A stretch of DNA of 40,371 nucleotides from a virus, in the IMG/VR virus record IMGVR_UViG_3300050133_000052, positions 1 through 40,371 of that record; one strand, 5' to 3'. This document shows, in pieces, positions 14,271 to 40,349 of this stretch. Both the position numbers and the translations under genes were made by a program. The notes below the pieces were generated by a model that was given only the letters and a program-made list of their open reading frames with translations, was not told where the DNA came from and made no database searches. How positions within the stretch are numbered: the first letter of the stretch is position 1; every line of letters begins with the position of its first letter.

Positions 14271-16039
14271 TATTGTTGACCTCCTTGTTTTTGCTGTATC
14301 ATCATTAGTAATTGCTGTAACATTTGGGGTGTAATCTGCTGCGCCTGAGGTTGCCCCTGCGCCTGTGGTTGAACCGCCTGCATAGGTTGTGGGTTAAGGC
14401 CTGTTTGCGCCTGTGCGGGTATCTGTGGGGGCTGTGTGGCCTGTTGTGTTGCCGCCTGTTGCATGTCCTGAACAAGTCCTTGGGGGAATATATTCTTAGG
14501 TGCGTATTTTACAAACTGGTAAGGGCTGATAGCACCTTTGTTGAATAGGGTTTCCATCATCGACATCTGAACGCTTTCCGAATACTCTGACCCCGGGCCG
14601 ACGTCAATTTCCATTGCAAATGAAACATCGGCGTACTGAGAGCCAAGAAATGTTTGAGGTATTTTTGCGCCTGTCGCTGGGTCTGATTTTGTGTAACTGC
14701 GCGGTTGATTGAAATATGCCTTATAAAACTGTTCCCATATGCGGCCGATACGTTCAATCGAGCGGTAAAATCTGTCCTGAACGTTATGAGTAGGCTGTCG
14801 AGCTTGATTTTGCAGGGCAATAATAGCACTTGCCGCCATATTCGCTCCCAATGTTTCGCCTGTCATAATTTCGGTAGTTCCCGTCATGGTGCGTTCCATT
14901 CCAAGCATATTATCAAGAATACTTGCGGGAGTGGTGGAAAACGCGGGCGGCTGCATGTACTTTATACCGTCCCCGTTACCGCTGTAATCGGTTAGGACTT
15001 CGCCCGGGGTGTTGGTGGGCTGCTCCTGCAAGGCTCCTTGTTTAACAAGCATCTTAGGCCAAGCGGTTTGCTGAACGGCCAAAAGCATCATGCCATATCC
15101 AGTATTTAACGCCTTTTGGAATGAAATTAAGCCCTCAATCTCGCCTATGCCATAAATACACTTTTTCCGGCGTTCCCAGTTGAAAACCTCAACCGGATAA
15201 AGAGTGATTTTTGAAGTCGCATCTTTCGGAGTAAGCGGGGTGGGAGGAACAATTACGGCACTTTCGGTAACTTTAGTCCAGTATACTTCACTGCCTGTAT
15301 ATGGATTTTTCGGGTCTATCGGTTGGCGATAATATTTAGTGACGCAAGTGGTCTTATTGCTGCCGTCGAGTTCGATTTGAGCCGCATCATATCCCTCTTC
15401 AGACGTATTTTTGTCGGACTGTATTAAATCTGTTGGCTGTTTGTTGGATTTTGCCATCTGAACAAGTTTGTCAGTGTCCTCGCGGCTTGAAATCTCTATG
15501 TAAGGCTGCTTTTGTACATCGTCCTGTTGAGGATTTGCAACAAAAAAGTTGATTGCGTCTATAACCTCACCTTTGAGTTTGCCAATGTACTTAGTGACCG
15601 TTCCACCGTGGTCATAATTGTCCCAGTAATAGTGAAATATGCCTGGCCCGTTTGTAACCGCATCATCAACCGCCCTGTCGTTCAGGTCTTTTTGTCTAAC
15701 ATCATTCCAAACGATCTGCGAATAGTCCGTAAAATCTGACGCGCCTTTGACAATAGTATTTGCAGTTTCAGGGTCACCCTCTGGCACTTCTTCTGCGGTA
15801 AAAAGCATCTTGATTGACTGTGATAGAACAGCAGCTTTCTTATTTCGGGTGACATAACTGATAAAATCAATTACAGGGCGGGGGAAGTTCTTTGTTGCGG
15901 GTGTTGAACAAGGCCATTGCTGACGCGTTTTAAAACGTTCAAATTCAGGCCAATTCGTAGAAAATCCCATGCTCTGCTGATACGTAAGCCCGTTTTTGCG
16001 TTCAGTCCATATTGTGCCGCTATCAGTGGCTATTGACAT
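14270..16039 (-). CDS. portal protein
   Basis: A 589-residue portal, the dodecameric ring through which DNA enters and leaves the head. It has the long central region expected (WERRKKCIYGIGEIEGLISFQKALN near 290-315, then the helical MLGMERTMTGTTEIMTGET near 385) and a Pro/Gln-rich C-terminal tail of about 60 residues. It sits 225 bases after the large terminase gene, with one small membrane-protein gene between. Length fits podovirus portals. AGCGGGTGAG precedes the ATG. The C-terminal Gln/Pro repeats look recently expanded but are in frame. Confidence 0.88.
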   Translation of the reverse strand: MSIATDSGTIWTERKNGLTYQQSMGFSTNWPEFERFKTRQQWPCSTPATKNFPRPVIDFISYVTRNKKAAVLSQSIKMLFTAEEVPEGDPETANTIVKGASDFTDYSQIVWNDVRQKDLNDRAVDDAVTNGPGIFHYYWDNYDHGGTVTKYIGKLKGEVIDAINFFVANPQQDDVQKQPYIEISSREDTDKLVQMAKSNKQPTDLIQSDKNTSEEGYDAAQIELDGSNKTTCVTKYYRQPIDPKNPYTGSEVYWTKVTESAVIVPPTPLTPKDATSKITLYPVEVFNWERRKKCIYGIGEIEGLISFQKALNTGYGMMLLAVQQTAWPKMLVKQGALQEQPTNTPGEVLTDYSGNGDGIKYMQPPAFSTTPASILDNMLGMERTMTGTTEIMTGETLGANMAASAIIALQNQARQPTHNVQDRFYRSIERIGRIWEQFYKAYFNQPRSYTKSDPATGAKIPQTFLGSQYADVSFAMEIDVGPGSEYSESVQMSMMETLFNKGAISPYQFVKYAPKNIFPQGLVQDMQQAATQQATQPPQIPAQAQTGLNPQPMQAVQPQAQGQPQAQQITPQMLQQLLMMIQQKQGGQQ

Positions 16040-19156: not shown

Positions 19157-19279
19157 CTATCCGTTTAATCTTTTAATACGCTCCATCTCATAGGTTGCCT
19201 TTAACGCTCTGTCTTCCTTAGATATTCCGTGTTTCTTTTTCCGTTTAGGTTTAATAATCTTGTTGTATTCCGGCTTCAT
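19157..19279 (-). CDS. small basic protein upstream of terminase small subunit
   Basis: A 40-residue Lys/Arg-rich protein (KPKRKKKHGI...) with a strong GAGGTGATT ribosome site before its ATG. It ends 19 bases before the small terminase start, in the same direction. It was too short for normal gene calling. Tight spacing and the good ribosome site argue that it is expressed. Function unknown; DNA contact is plausible from the charge. Confidence 0.6.
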   Translation of the reverse strand: MKPEYNKIIKPKRKKKHGISKEDRALKATYEMERIKRLNG

Positions 19280-19331
19280 AATCACCTCAAAAAATAATGA
19301 CCTATGTTACTTACTAAATCTTATATATTAA

Positions 19332-19442
19332 TAGTACAAGTCTTATATAGTAGTACGCTCTTATATATACGTCTCTGGTAGAGCCGTTGCCTCAGTCTCC
19401 TGTAGATACGTAGGGCTTAGTCTCTGGTAGAGTCGATGCTTA
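19332..19442. repeat. tandem repeats upstream of the packaging genes
   Basis: Two sets. TAGTACAAGTCTTATATAG starts at 19332 and a diverged copy TAGTACGCTCTTATATATA at 19351 (19-base period). Then three copies of a 24-25 base unit start GTCTCTGGTAGAG (19371), GTCTCCTGTAGATA (19395) and GTCTCTGGTAGAG (19420). The last overlaps the end of the winged-helix gene. They could be iterons for that protein, a late promoter control region or terminase sites. Confidence 0.55.
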
Positions 19443-19781
19443 TGTTAATATGCGATAATGTGTGATTGGGTTCTCTGATTTCTTACCACTGTTTGTATAT
19501 GTAATGTGACCTTTCCACGTCTGTAATAAATCTGTTTGTAATAATTCGGCTTTTGCTTTTTTTAATGTTCCGAGACACAGTCCCGAATCCTCTACAAGTT
19601 CTTTATCCGACCTTGTAAAAAAGTCTTGGGGGTTCTTGGATTTTTGACTGCCTGTAAATTTATGTTCGTTTTCCTTTAAGACTACATATAACCACTTGGC
19701 ATAAACAGACATACTTTTATATGGGTCTGAATTAAATAGATGTCTTGTCAGTTCTATATAGTACGTGTTGCCGTTTTTCAT
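19440..19781 (-). CDS. winged-helix DNA-binding protein, replication-initiator-like
   Basis: A 113-residue protein. YYIELTRHLFN...SVYAKWLYVVLKENEHKF at 8-43 and DKELVEDSGLCLGTLKKAKAELLQTDLL near 72-97 look like the winged-helix start of phage or plasmid replication initiators and replisome organisers. It lacks any C-terminal domain, so it may be a regulator rather than an initiator. A good AAAGGAGAA ribosome site precedes the ATG, a long inverted repeat lies upstream and tandem repeats overlap its end. Role not certain. Confidence 0.6.
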   Translation of the reverse strand: MKNGNTYYIELTRHLFNSDPYKSMSVYAKWLYVVLKENEHKFTGSQKSKNPQDFFTRSDKELVEDSGLCLGTLKKAKAELLQTDLLQTWKGHITYTNSGKKSENPITHYRILT

Positions 19782-19824
19782 GCGCCATTCTCCTTTAACG
19801 CTTCTCCTGGTTGCCCTTTCGGGC

Positions 19825-19879
19825 GGGCGTGAAGTGATTGGAGAAAATCACTTGTCGAGCTGCATACCCTATCACGCCC
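19825..19879 (-). promoter_or_regulatory. long nested inverted repeat upstream of the winged-helix gene
   Basis: GGGCGTGA (19825-19832) pairs with TCACGCCC (19872-19879), 39 bases apart; inside, AAGTGATT (19832-19839) pairs with AATCACTT (19846-19853) around a six-base loop. No T-run follows on the minus strand. As DNA it could be a replication or protein-binding site; as RNA it is a structured leader of the downstream gene. Confidence 0.5.
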
Positions 19880-19984
19880 AAATTACTCTCTGTTGATTGT
19901 AAAATATCTTTATATACTAATTGTATCGTACGTAAGCGTTACACGCAACAAAAATATATGCATGTTGTAACTATGTTTTGGGCA

Positions 19985-36096: not shown

Positions 36097-37233
36097 CTAT
36101 ACCATCCTGACCGGCAACATATCCGTTGCTGACATGTAGGCCACTTCTTTCATGTACCCTTTTTTAATAAGAAAACGCCGGATGAAGTCAATACCCTTTT
36201 GGTAAACAACTGTCTTGTAATTTTCGTGTACCTCGCCAGTCTTGGGGCTGGTATAGGTGCTTTCAATAACTCTAAAGTAGTGGCGGTCGCAAAACTCTTG
36301 ATAGGGTATGTTGTTTGCCATGAGGATTGAGCTGTCTCTTAAAATGCGGAACAGGGTTGTCCGACCTTTGCTAAAATTAATAACCTTTGCGACGGTGCCG
36401 ATGTCGATGCAATCCTTTGAGCCGGTGACTGTGTCATAAAAATCTGCCTTAGGCTGCAACTCTGCGGCTTTATGTTCCGCTACGAGCCGCCCCTCACGTT
36501 CTGTCTTGATTGCAATCGCAAGCTTTATAATGTAGTCGGGGTTTAAAAGGGTTTGCTCGATCACCTCGGGGGTCATGTACGCGCCGTGCTTGCGGATGGA
36601 GGGGATTACCTCGGCTGCAAGCCAATCAGTAAACTTTTCGGCTTCGGGTTTGCGTGACGAGAAAACGAGCTTATAAATTCCTGCCTCGTTAATAATGTTC
36701 ATTTCTTGATTGCCGCCAAGGGTGCTGATACTGTGCGTACCCTTTGTTTGATCTGATAGTCTTGAAATTGCGTTCCATGTATCAACTATCTCCAAAATGT
36801 CGCATACATCTTTTGCGACAAACCAAACCTCGCCATCCTTTTCAACCGTTCTGACTTGTCTATCTGAATAATTAAAAACCTGCAATTGATTGTCCGTTTT
36901 GTCCACATCCTTTTCTTTAAATTTAAAGTGATTTTTCAGGGCAGTAAGAAGTTCCTCAATTTTTGATACCGGTAACGTGCCTATGTAACTTTTAAATCTG
37001 AATTTGTCAATTGACCTGATTTGCTCGCACATAATATCAGACAGTGCATCGGCATGAACCTTAACGTGTGTAGGGCTTTCCATGATCGTCTTTGTCATAG
37101 GGCAAATGGTTACAAGTGCATGGTATGTTTCATCCTCGCAGATAACCACAACTGGCCTCATGCCCCGTTGCTCATGATGTCCCGACGTTCCAAGATCGGC
37201 ATAATACATCTGACCTATTTGGTAGTCCAACAT
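36097..37233 (-). CDS. fusion of MazF/PemK-like toxin and BRO-N phage antirepressor
   Basis: A 378-residue two-function protein. Residues 5-105 are a MazF/PemK-type fold: GQMYYADLGTSGHHEQRGMRPVVVI with R26 and then CPMT with T47, the residues that correspond to the RNase site of MazF. Residues about 115-215 are a BRO-N domain (RTVEKDGEVWFVAKDVCDILEI, FTDWLAAEVIPSIRKHG), and about 240-365 an antirepressor C-terminal (ANT/KilAC) domain. No stop or good internal start separates the parts. The normal job of BRO-N/ANT proteins is to inactivate repressors; an RNase head would be new. It begins ATG after AAGGAGATA. Confidence 0.85.
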   Translation of the reverse strand: MLDYQIGQMYYADLGTSGHHEQRGMRPVVVICEDETYHALVTICPMTKTIMESPTHVKVHADALSDIMCEQIRSIDKFRFKSYIGTLPVSKIEELLTALKNHFKFKEKDVDKTDNQLQVFNYSDRQVRTVEKDGEVWFVAKDVCDILEIVDTWNAISRLSDQTKGTHSISTLGGNQEMNIINEAGIYKLVFSSRKPEAEKFTDWLAAEVIPSIRKHGAYMTPEVIEQTLLNPDYIIKLAIAIKTEREGRLVAEHKAAELQPKADFYDTVTGSKDCIDIGTVAKVINFSKGRTTLFRILRDSSILMANNIPYQEFCDRHYFRVIESTYTSPKTGEVHENYKTVVYQKGIDFIRRFLIKKGYMKEVAYMSATDMLPVRMV

Positions 37234-37248
37234 TTTATCTCCTTCCTT

Positions 37249-37458
37249 TTAAATCATCAATTCCCTCATATAAACCTGCTGATTGATTTCGACCATGTGG
37301 GCAATTTCGGCCTTTGTGATTTTTCTATCCGAATAACGAATTAAAACTGTCGCGCCTGACGGGTCTTTACAAACTTCGGCGTATTGCTCGGTTGGTAAAA
37401 AGGGATGCTTCATTTTTGCGTTATCTTCTTCACTGATCTCGACCGGATATTTGCCCAT
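37249..37458 (-). CDS. hypothetical protein upstream of fusion gene
   Basis: A 69-residue protein starting MGKYPVEISEED after GAGGTGG; an in-frame start at 37512 lacks it. Its stop is 15 bases before the MazF-antirepressor gene, so it could be an antitoxin-like partner, but no antitoxin motif is seen. Strongly acidic middle, helical C-terminus. Confidence 0.55.
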   Translation of the reverse strand: MGKYPVEISEEDNAKMKHPFLPTEQYAEVCKDPSGATVLIRYSDRKITKAEIAHMVEINQQVYMRELMI

Positions 37459-37502: not shown

Positions 37503-37688
37503 TTACTCCCATCCAAAGTATTTTTTGATCTTGGTTTCAAGTGGTGCGCTTACATCCTGACCATGCAAGGTTGACCATGTAAAATTGTAATTAGAGTTGA
37601 TTGCTGTCGTGAGTTCCCTAAGAGATATGCCCCGTTTGCTAAGTTCGGAATATACTCTCAGCCCAAATTCGGATAATTTGTATTTCAT
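37503..37688 (-). CDS. Cro-like small HTH regulator
   Basis: A 61-residue protein starting MKYKLSEFGLRVYSELSKRGISLREL after AAAAGGAGG; the upstream in-frame start at 37805 is not supported. The HTH-like helices (residues about 5-45) and the first position on the leftward transcript opposite the CI-like gene suit a Cro-type repressor or activator of the lytic transcript. DNA-binding residues are not individually certain. Confidence 0.6.
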   Translation of the reverse strand: MKYKLSEFGLRVYSELSKRGISLRELTTAINSNYNFTWSTLHGQDVSAPLETKIKKYFGWE

Positions 37689-37840: not shown

Positions 37841-37869
37841 AGTATATCTTAGAGTTCTAAGAATATCAA
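37841..37869 (-). promoter_or_regulatory. lytic (PR-like) promoter
   Basis: On the minus strand TTGATA (37869-37864) and TATACT (37846-37841) are exactly 17 bases apart, and that spacer is filled by the first operator (37847-37862). Transcription would start near 37834 and read the Cro-like gene, the fusion gene and the early operon. A repressor bound in the spacer would block polymerase directly. Confidence 0.75.
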
Positions 37870-37893
37870 TAGATATCTCTTAGTTTTCTAAGA
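37847..37893. promoter_or_regulatory. operators of the lysis-lysogeny switch
   Basis: Two palindromes: TCTTAGAGTTCTAAGA (37847-37862) and TCTTAGTTTTCTAAGA (37878-37893), sharing TCTTAG...CTAAGA half-sites, with centres 31 bases apart. A weaker ATATC-AATA-GATAT palindrome lies between (37863-37876). They overlap the leftward promoter and are 36 bases from the CI-like start, so they are the likely CI and Cro binding sites. Confidence 0.75.
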
Positions 37894-37928
37894 TTTGTCA
37901 CTATGCATATATAGGAGTATGATAAATT

Positions 37929-38351
37929 GTGAATTATGACGATAAGAAAGCTATAGATAGAATTTTTGAATTGCTTGATCAAAAAGGAATAAAGCCCTCA
38001 AAAATGGCAGAAGATTTAAGATTCTCAACCGGCCTTGCTTCGCAATGGAAAGCTTATTTGCAGAAACCCTCAATAAACAAGATTAAATTGATCGCTCCTT
38101 ATTTAAATGTTACAATTCCTTATCTGCTTAATGGCTCAGAAGAACCAAATGTAACGCAAATTATAGCAAGTCGAATAAAAGAAATAAGACAGCAAGAAAG
38201 CCCCGTCTATGACGACGAGGCACTTGAATACTTGGATGAATTACGCAATAGACCTGAAATGAGGATGCTTTTTAAAACTGCAAAAAAATCAACCAAAGAG
38301 GATATCGAACGAACAGTAAAAATTATTGAAGCGTTAAAAGGAAGCGAGTAG
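37929..38351 (+). CDS. CI-like phage repressor (XRE-type HTH)
   Basis: A 140-residue protein with an HTH domain in residues about 5-60 (ISELL-like DQKGIKPSKMAEDLRFSTGLASQWKAYL) and a short C-terminal part; no LexA-type Ser-Lys peptidase signature, so it is inactivated not by self-cleavage but by the antirepressor or the ImmA-like protease next to it. Starts GTG after AGGAG 11 bases upstream. It is first in the plus lysogeny operon. Confidence 0.8.
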   Translation: MNYDDKKAIDRIFELLDQKGIKPSKMAEDLRFSTGLASQWKAYLQKPSINKIKLIAPYLNVTIPYLLNGSEEPNVTQIIASRIKEIRQQESPVYDDEALEYLDELRNRPEMRMLFKTAKKSTKEDIERTVKIIEALKGSE

Positions 38352-38352
38352 T

Positions 38353-38565
38353 TTGGACGAAGTGATTGTCAGATATTATGACCTGCCCTGCTCGGCAAAA
38401 GGCGTTACTGTTTTAGATGGAAACGGCGATTATAACATATATATTAATTCAAGACTTAACCATGAGCAGCAGCAGAAAGCAAAGCAGCATGAATTAAGGC
38501 ATATTAAATACGGAGATTTTTATTCGAAAAAGGACACAAAATTTATTGAACATAGGGCGGAATGA
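38353..38565 (+). CDS. mini ImmA/IrrE-like metallopeptidase
   Basis: A 70-residue protein with KQHELRHIKYGDF near 43-55, holding an HExxH zinc motif (HELRH). ImmA-type proteases usually have 120 or more residues and cut the phage repressor after DNA damage; this is about half size. Start is TTG at 38353, one base after the repressor stop, with AAAAGGAAG upstream in the repressor gene. Whether the short form is active is unclear. Confidence 0.65.
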   Translation: MDEVIVRYYDLPCSAKGVTVLDGNGDYNIYINSRLNHEQQQKAKQHELRHIKYGDFYSKKDTKFIEHRAE

Positions 38566-38840: not shown

Positions 38841-40349
38841 ATGGATGAATTTAATAAAAGCGTTGCCATGTATTTGAGGAAGTCAAGAGCCGAAGAAAAT
38901 GAGAACACCGAGGCGGTTCTTGCCCGACACAAAGCTACTTTAATGAAGTATGCTGCTATCAACAGAATAGATATAAAAAAGATATATGAAGAGATTGCCA
39001 GTGGCGATAGCCTATTTGCCCGCCCAAAGATGTTAGAACTGCTGCAAGACATTGAGGACAAACAATATACAGGCGTGTTGTGCGTCGATATAGACCGTCT
39101 GGGGCGCGGTAACATGCAGGAGCAGGGACTTATACTAAACACACTCAAAGACGCGTCTACAGCCATTATAACACCCGACAAGACGTATAATCTGAATGAT
39201 GAACTTGATGAAACACAAACGGAGTTTAAAACATTCTTTGCCCGGCAGGAATTAAAGATGATAAAAAAGAGATTGAGCCGCGGAATAAGGCAAACGGTAG
39301 AAAAGGGCGGATATGTTTCTAACCCTCCCTTTGGATATAAAAGAGCACATAAAGATAAAATCCCGACATTGGAACCGGATCCCGAAGAGGCCGATATTGT
39401 AAAACTGATTTTTGAGTTGTATCTTGGAGATTATGGTTGCCAGTATATAAGTGAACGGTTGAACAAAATGGGTGTTAAACCTCACCGAGGTGAAGAATTT
39501 AACCGTCGCAGCGTCAGATATATTTTAACAAATGAAATTTATACAGGGAAAATCGTATGGGGCAAAACAAAGTTTCACCGGCCTAAAAAGGTTGGAGATA
39601 CATTTTACAAAACAAATAATTCACCTGAAAACTGGATAACAATAGACGGATTGCAACCCGCAATAATAAGCCAGGACACTTTTGATAAAGTAGGCGAAAT
39701 GGTAAGGCACAATTTAAAGCCCTCAACTCACGTTTCCGGAGTAATTGAAAACCCGCTTGCAGGAATACTATTATGTCGGAATTGCGGCTATTCTATGTCA
39801 CGCCGTCCGTTTAATGGCAGAAAGTATCAACATGATTTATTAATATGTCCTATTAAGGGATGCATGAAAGCGTCACGGCTTGATCACGTCGAGCAAATCT
39901 TTTTAAAAAATCTTAGTGAAAAAGTTCCTCAACTTGAAATCGAACTCCAGCAGGAGCAAAGGGATAGCAGTGAGAAACAAAAGGAAATTCAAACAAGTAA
40001 AATGAAATTCGAACACGATAAACTGATAGCGCAACGTAATAAACTTTATGATCTGCTTGAACAGGGCATTTACACGGTCAATAAATTTCAAGAGCGTGAA
40101 AGCGGAATTACTGAAAAAATTGATAAGTTAGATTTTGATATTAGAACATTTGAAACAGAAAATAAATTGTTACCTAAACAGAAAAAAATTATAATTCCCA
40201 AAATAAAAAACGTTCTGCAAAAATATTGGGAAAGCACACCAACAGAAAAAAACGCCCTATTAAAGGACGTTGTTGAAAAAGCATATTATTATAAAACAAA
40301 AGACGCGAAACCTGATGATTTTACCTTAGATCTGATTTTAAAACTCTGA
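38841..40349 (+). CDS. large serine integrase
   Basis: A 502-residue large serine recombinase that inserts and excises the prophage. The catalytic domain starts VAMYLRKSR with nucleophile S15, followed by DIDRLGRGNMQEQG near 75-88 and the recombinase domain to about 260. Then comes a zinc ribbon (LLCRNCGYS near 311-319 and CPIKGC near 336-341) and a coiled-coil C-terminal part (about 350-450). Start is ATG 3 bases after the membrane protein stop. Candidate att sequences follow its stop. It shares the operon of the repressor. Confidence 0.93.
   Translation: MDEFNKSVAMYLRKSRAEENENTEAVLARHKATLMKYAAINRIDIKKIYEEIASGDSLFARPKMLELLQDIEDKQYTGVLCVDIDRLGRGNMQEQGLILNTLKDASTAIITPDKTYNLNDELDETQTEFKTFFARQELKMIKKRLSRGIRQTVEKGGYVSNPPFGYKRAHKDKIPTLEPDPEEADIVKLIFELYLGDYGCQYISERLNKMGVKPHRGEEFNRRSVRYILTNEIYTGKIVWGKTKFHRPKKVGDTFYKTNNSPENWITIDGLQPAIISQDTFDKVGEMVRHNLKPSTHVSGVIENPLAGILLCRNCGYSMSRRPFNGRKYQHDLLICPIKGCMKASRLDHVEQIFLKNLSEKVPQLEIELQQEQRDSSEKQKEIQTSKMKFEHDKLIAQRNKLYDLLEQGIYTVNKFQERESGITEKIDKLDFDIRTFETENKLLPKQKKIIIPKIKNVLQKYWESTPTEKNALLKDVVEKAYYYKTKDAKPDDFTLDLILKL

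Follow-up and report, generated by a model that had tools for sequence, protein, structure and literature searches.

A MazF-type toxin domain joined in one reading frame to a phage antirepressor, and further MazF-antirepressor fusions in other viruses and prophages

In a temperate phage we found one gene that joins a MazF/PemK toxin head to a complete Bro-N/ANT antirepressor, and at least three further MazF-antirepressor fusions turned up in other viruses and prophages. The window analysed here is a whole IMG/VR virus record of 40,371 bases. Its fusion gene is an uninterrupted open frame of 378 aa that begins with ATG behind a strong Shine-Dalgarno (SD) sequence (AAGGAAGGAGATAAA-ATG) and contains no stop. 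Judging from its domains, its place in the genome and its relatives, we propose, with confidence a little short of even, that the product is a bifunctional lysis-lysogeny switch protein that would link control of the repressor to RNA cleavage. The features of the gene and its surroundings are collected in Table 1.

Table 1. Features of the fusion gene and the lysogeny region of the window.
Feature	Position	Strand	Basis
MazF-Bro-N-ANT fusion gene, 378 aa	36097..37233	-	Single ORF and three Pfam domains
SD of fusion, AGGAAGGAGA, 4 nt 5' of ATG	37238..37247	-	
MazF/PemK head, residues ~1-108 (Pfam 6-101), R26 and T47 kept	36910..37233	-	Profiles, alignment, AF2
SD-like AAGGATGTGG, 8/10 match to AAGGAGGTGA, 5 nt before codon 113	36903..36912	-	
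ACG (T113) where stand-alone relatives have ATG	36895..36897	-	Alignment with relatives' starts
Bro-N domain, residues 125-210	36604..36861	-	Pfam; AF2
ANT/KilAC domain, residues 252-354	36172..36480	-	Pfam; AF2
69-aa protein upstream of fusion	37249..37458	-	Weak match to phrog_33151/5753 (function unknown)
Small first gene of leftward operon, 61 aa, Cro-like by position only	37503..37688	-	ORF inside longer frame
Divergent promoter-like sites, - at 37869-37841, + at 37895-37923	37841..37923		Consensus scan only
HTH repressor (phrog_8; RstR-like, below cut-off)	37929..38351	+	
Short ImmA-like metalloprotease, HELRH, phrog_87	38353..38565	+	
Large serine recombinase (integrase)	38841..40349	+	

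Pfam matched all three domains in the single 378-aa ORF, as a preliminary description of this DNA had read them: PemK_toxin (PF02452; 2.5e-20, 73.1 bits against a cut-off of 23.1), Bro-N (PF02498; 2.8e-24) and ANT (KilAC, PF03374; 5.2e-25), the latter two far over their curated cut-offs. PHROGs assigned residues 2-121 to phrog_1936 (MazF-like, growth inhibitor) and residues 105-364 to phrog_130 (anti-repressor Ant). No pattern of a frameshift artefact was seen in the window. Although the gene is known from a single virus record, and no second copy or close relative of it was found, we regard it as extremely improbable that a base lost in assembling or sequencing a metagenomic contig fused two frames. 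Apart from a decayed start, there is neither a stop nor intergenic sequence between the modules, both domains are full length, and like fusions exist elsewhere, one in two records (G310 and L128) and one in a second, diverged virus (L181).

The window phage is tailed and temperate, encoding a terminase, portal, capsid, DnaB-like helicase, DnaD-like loader and methyltransferase. Its repressor, ImmA-like protease and serine integrase all point rightward at the right end of the window, and the fusion is the third gene of a leftward early operon, with promoter-like sites between the operon and the divergent repressor. A leftward early operon opposite the repressor is the usual place for an antirepressor. 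The ImmA-like protein adjoins the repressor and is only 70 aa long; it is possibly a second route of repressor inactivation. At the head of the operon, the 61-aa gene has no family match in Pfam or PHROGs. The 69-aa protein directly upstream of the fusion had been put forward as an antitoxin, a suggestion that our comparisons do not support: searches that included Pfam and PHROGs gave no match to MazE or any other antitoxin, no phage homologue was found, and the genes upstream of the other fusions are unrelated to it, being cro-like, excisionase-like or unknown. No adjacent cognate antitoxin, as in a type II MazEF pair, was found for the window fusion.

The head itself has the hallmarks of a MazF. 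R26 and T47, which had been picked out from the sequence at the outset, fall at the conserved catalytic arginine and threonine in alignments with solved MazF structures and viral MazF. The best sequence match to the S. aureus and B. subtilis MazF structures was 2e-8. Modelled alone by AlphaFold2 (AF2) and aligned with 31 viral MazF sequences, the head gave a pLDDT of 79 and a pTM of 0.73, and the best Foldseek matches of this model in the PDB were all MazF, with a TM of 0.86 to 1ne8 (B. subtilis YdcE/MazF). In a full-length AF2 model the MazF part was poor because the alignment was shallow. Together, AF2 and Foldseek predict that the window head still adopts the SH3-like MazF fold, and it is the most diverged of the four fused heads (26-37% identical to other viral MazF heads). 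We propose that it cuts RNA.

The tail is a Bro-N/ANT antirepressor whose own start appears to have been lost. In the full-length AF2 model, pLDDT was ~75-84 over most of Bro-N, falling to ~62 at its C-terminal end, and ~83-93 over most of ANT. Its nearest relatives in IMG/VR and GTDB genomes are 31-74% identical, with the high values over short segments; they are mostly stand-alone proteins of ~240-285 aa with no MazF in frame or in the flanks examined. Because the closest relatives of the tail stand alone, the fusion is the derived state. In alignments, the ATG of these relatives falls at T113 (or D114) of the fusion, as in L029, where ATG GAA AAT AAG TTA CAG faces ACG GAC AAT CAA TTG CAG. 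Ahead of this ACG lies an SD-like sequence in the order AAGGATGTGG-ACAAA, a spacing normal for an SD. Scores of 8 or more occur at 0.35% of window positions and 0.8% of codons in the fusion gene, and the sequence is probably what is left of the ribosome-binding site that once served the antirepressor alone. Around the junction, the in-frame ATG, GTG and TTG codons all lack a good SD (5/10 for GTG110 and TTG117), in agreement with the earlier view that there is no strong internal start. With ACG at the start position and a degraded SD, the own start of a stand-alone antirepressor appears to be missing, and its decay is the simplest reading of this one sequence. As the internal start looks decayed, only the fusion should be made from the window gene. 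The tail would be expected to bind and inactivate a cognate repressor.

Searching for other proteins of this architecture yielded three, none of them with Bro-N. G382 was found among 391 genomes from the class of G001 (Oscillospiraceae MAG). It carries, in a prophage-like region (L110), a 383-aa ORF made up of MazF and ORF6N, with a tyrosine integrase, an Xre repressor and a cro-like gene as neighbors. A search of the order of G382 (58 genomes) led to G310, in which locus L124 encodes a 378-aa protein of MazF, P22_AR_N and ANT; the same locus is present in IMG/VR as provirus L128. The third, L181, came from a scan of viral contigs and is a diverged MazF-P22_AR_N-ANT gene in a 74-kb metagenomic virus. 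All four fusions are located in the lysogeny region, and the antirepressor domains that follow the MazF head are of three N-terminal types (Bro-N, ORF6N and P22_AR_N). In two of these elements regulators of quorum-sensing and sporulation type were seen near the switch (L124:4623-5237, L124:10416-10949 and L110:10171-10731): AgrB (4e-31), which was found in L124 only, and a protein with a Spo0A C-terminal domain (2.6e-38).

The three relatives share their heads (75-78% identical), and their tails have been exchanged or have diverged. Between L110 and L124, nucleotide homology of 74.6% extends from the SD of the head to the internal start (L110 7953-8339), is absent in the differing tails and resumes further downstream. 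The homology stops at the internal start, and we read this as an exchange of the tail behind a constant head. L124 and L181 differ with pS 0.73 and pN 0.127 in the head (pN/pS ~0.17) and with pS 0.66 and pN 0.173 in the tail, and both halves are under purifying selection after near-saturating divergence. The linkers of the three relatives (AAAAGGGAGGGACAAGCA-GTG, AAAAGGAGGGACAAGCA-GTG and AAAAAGGAGGGACAAGTA-GTG) have an intact SD and internal start, so two products, MazF-Ant and Ant, are probably made from each gene. Between L124 and L181, this linker shows zero synonymous change in nine codons (pS 0).

These comparisons also bear on whether the joined state matters. Neighboring genes might simply have become connected when mazF lost its stop, leaving a functionless join with the antirepressor as the sole working part. 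The intact SD and GTG in three fusions would yield the antirepressor alone, and the linker is so short (~10 codons) that its freedom from stops is weak evidence by itself, although linker indels of whole codons help. However, the head is under strong purifying selection, the join has outlived saturated synonymous divergence, whole-codon indels and tail exchange, and in the window, where the internal start looks lost, the antirepressor would come only as a fusion. Moreover, no stand-alone mazF-ant pair within 3 kb was found in the viral MazF loci. We therefore judge a functionless join to be improbable.

Nearly as doubtful, in our estimate, is a head that binds instead of cutting, whether it contacts RNA or host MazE (as a decoy that frees host MazF, or as a MazE sensor) or dimerizes the antirepressor. 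The heads of G382 and G310 are each ~73-74% identical to another MazF of the same genome, which could allow antitoxins to be exchanged between them, and phi3T produces binding proteins for MazE and MazF (PMC10769878). Nevertheless, the catalytic arginine and threonine are present in all four fused heads, the heads are strongly constrained, and that of the window is far from the usual host MazF.

Fusions of this kind were rarely met. With tblastn at the sensitivity used, no true fusion was detected in 50,697 phage records (queries P0001, P0003 and P0004) or in 72,556 plasmid records (P0001 and P0003). Among ~1,540 genomes, mostly Clostridia and Bacilli, there were at least two fusions among the matches listed, some of these searches having been run at a strict E-value. 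IMG/VR was also scanned for tandem MazF/Bro-N motifs with a pattern that required an exact WFVAK and GxRP within a set distance and so misses diverged cases; no second MazF-Bro-N fusion was found in this way. Several candidates were rejected: the IMG/VR pattern matches were real Bro-N genes with chance upstream motifs, three long phage matches (H1-H3) proved to be stand-alone antirepressors, and long MazF frames in other genomes had N-terminal read-through or tails that are not antirepressors. Among 31 distinct MazF sequences from viral loci, an antirepressor within ~3 kb was detectable beside the fused ones only. In Psychrobacillus phage Perkons (MT325768.1), MazF-family and antirepressor genes are unfused but lie within 4 kb of each other (15274-15543 and 19210-19959), and the antirepressor shares 39% identity with the G310 tail.

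We also asked how the fused heads are related. In a tree of MazF heads, those of G382 and G310 are sisters (96/99), and that of the window sits apart from them on a long branch. A single clade of all fused heads was recovered in 0 of 200 bootstraps, yet it is not rejected (p-AU 0.21). A separate origin of the window fusion is likely, though not proven, because its head is unlike the others and its tail family and junction are different.

MazF was met in several other architectures during these searches. Two frames, L126:2359-3354 (P0005) and L125:7405-8076 (P0006), combine it with a TOPRIM-like domain (PADLOC RT-Toprim_I-C, 1.5e-10), and the copy in L125 is truncated, with a SIR2/ThsA-like gene (8.9e-26) next to it. 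A 262-aa frame at L170 (G365) has an apparent excisionase-type helix-turn-helix at the C-terminus of MazF, recognized by eye. At L155 and L158 in genomes, and L197 and L205 in viral contigs, MazF is followed by a conserved C-terminal tail, ~60 aa long, whose paired cysteines (CLCxxC...CTYC / CRRC...CDFC) resemble a zinc ribbon. Finally, in the 266-aa frame of L174 (G981) an apparent membrane segment, together with a coiled region, precedes MazF.

How might the bifunctional switch that we favor work? Relief of the repressor (37929-38351) would allow the leftward early operon to make one polypeptide. Its C-terminal Bro-N/ANT antirepressor would act on the lysogeny repressor or operator, and its N-terminal MazF head would be an active endoribonuclease that cuts mRNA at specific sequences. 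Onset of the lytic program would then also release RNA cleavage, reshaping the pool of host and phage RNA at the decision. In the three relatives, the internal ribosome-binding site would add a toxin-free antirepressor and make the dosage tunable; in the window, where this site appears decayed, the fusion would be the sole product. It is plausible that a toxin head alters what an antirepressor switch does, and its recurrence backs this idea. Bro/Ant proteins, including ANT8 of corynephage P1201, bind DNA and slow growth on over-expression (PMC4257102), and the ANT8 antirepressor is ~40% identical to the window tail. The preliminary description had also entertained an RNA-guided inducer, and nothing that we found points to RNA guiding.

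The direction in which cleavage would push the decision is less clear. Against the bifunctional switch speak the strong divergence of the window head and the harm that a fully active MazF at induction, with no partner antitoxin found, might do to the phage itself, the leftward transcript not being depleted in UACAU (54 vs 41 expected). Host shut-off and a brake toward lysogeny are not separated by anything here, and we lean slightly to the former. As a brake, the head would cleave lytic transcripts and bias the outcome to lysogeny, giving the switch a built-in negative feedback. We consider this unlikely but well within reason. MazF activity promotes lysogeny in phi3T via host MazEF (PMC10769878). 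The window fusion mRNA has 6 UACAU in 1.14 kb, compared to ~1.6 expected from the rate in the leftward transcript, and is possibly self-targeting; no site occurs in the repressor mRNA of any of the four loci. However, UACAU may not be the cutting motif of the window head, the other fusion mRNAs hold only 1-2 sites, and a lack of sites in repressor mRNA that totals ~1.6 kb is not significant. Returning to the switch as a whole, we suggest, slightly more tentatively than for the window protein itself, that the building of an mRNA-cutting toxin into the antirepressor happened more than once among temperate phages. A constant MazF head would be followed by exchangeable antirepressor tails, and in some of the fusions an internal start would set how much antirepressor is made with the toxin and how much without it. 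Such an antitoxin-less MazF under control of the switch would make RNA decay part of the lysis-lysogeny decision.

Both protein families are known, and the architecture and its recurrence appear to be new; we found no earlier description of a MazF-antirepressor fusion in open-access PMC papers. The link between MazF and lysis or lysogeny in the literature that we found is indirect (host MazEF, phi3T), whereas in the fusion it would be direct, and one protein makes it testable whether RNA cleavage works toward lysis, lysogeny or host killing. The fusions also illustrate a MazF that has no antitoxin dedicated to it, and tails that are swapped while the head is conserved. Like the Bro-N/ANT antirepressors of phrog_130 (Lactobacillus phage A2 Ant, corynephage P1201 ANT8), the window tail has complete Bro-N and ANT domains. 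Across most of its length it shares ~37-54% identity with stand-alone members, and it sits where expected in the operon, but the stand-alone members examined, mostly 240-290 aa long, have no toxin domain, whereas the window protein has a MazF head in front and its own start looks lost. Compared with MazF/PemK type II toxins such as B. subtilis EndoA/NdoA, the head has the same predicted fold, the catalytic R and T and the EQIRxIDK motif. It differs in having no adjacent MazE, in lying inside a 378-aa regulatory protein and in having ~7 fewer residues in one loop. Pairs of repressor and antirepressor have been described as toxin-antitoxin-like modules (Makarova et al. 2009, PMC2701414), an arrangement that the window shares; that survey stated that antirepressors lack toxin domains, unlike the one described here. 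The arbitrium-host MazEF circuit of phi3T likewise ties MazF activity to the lysis-lysogeny decision (PMC10769878). There, separate phage proteins modulate the host MazF, whereas in the window a MazF domain lies inside the phage's own antirepressor.
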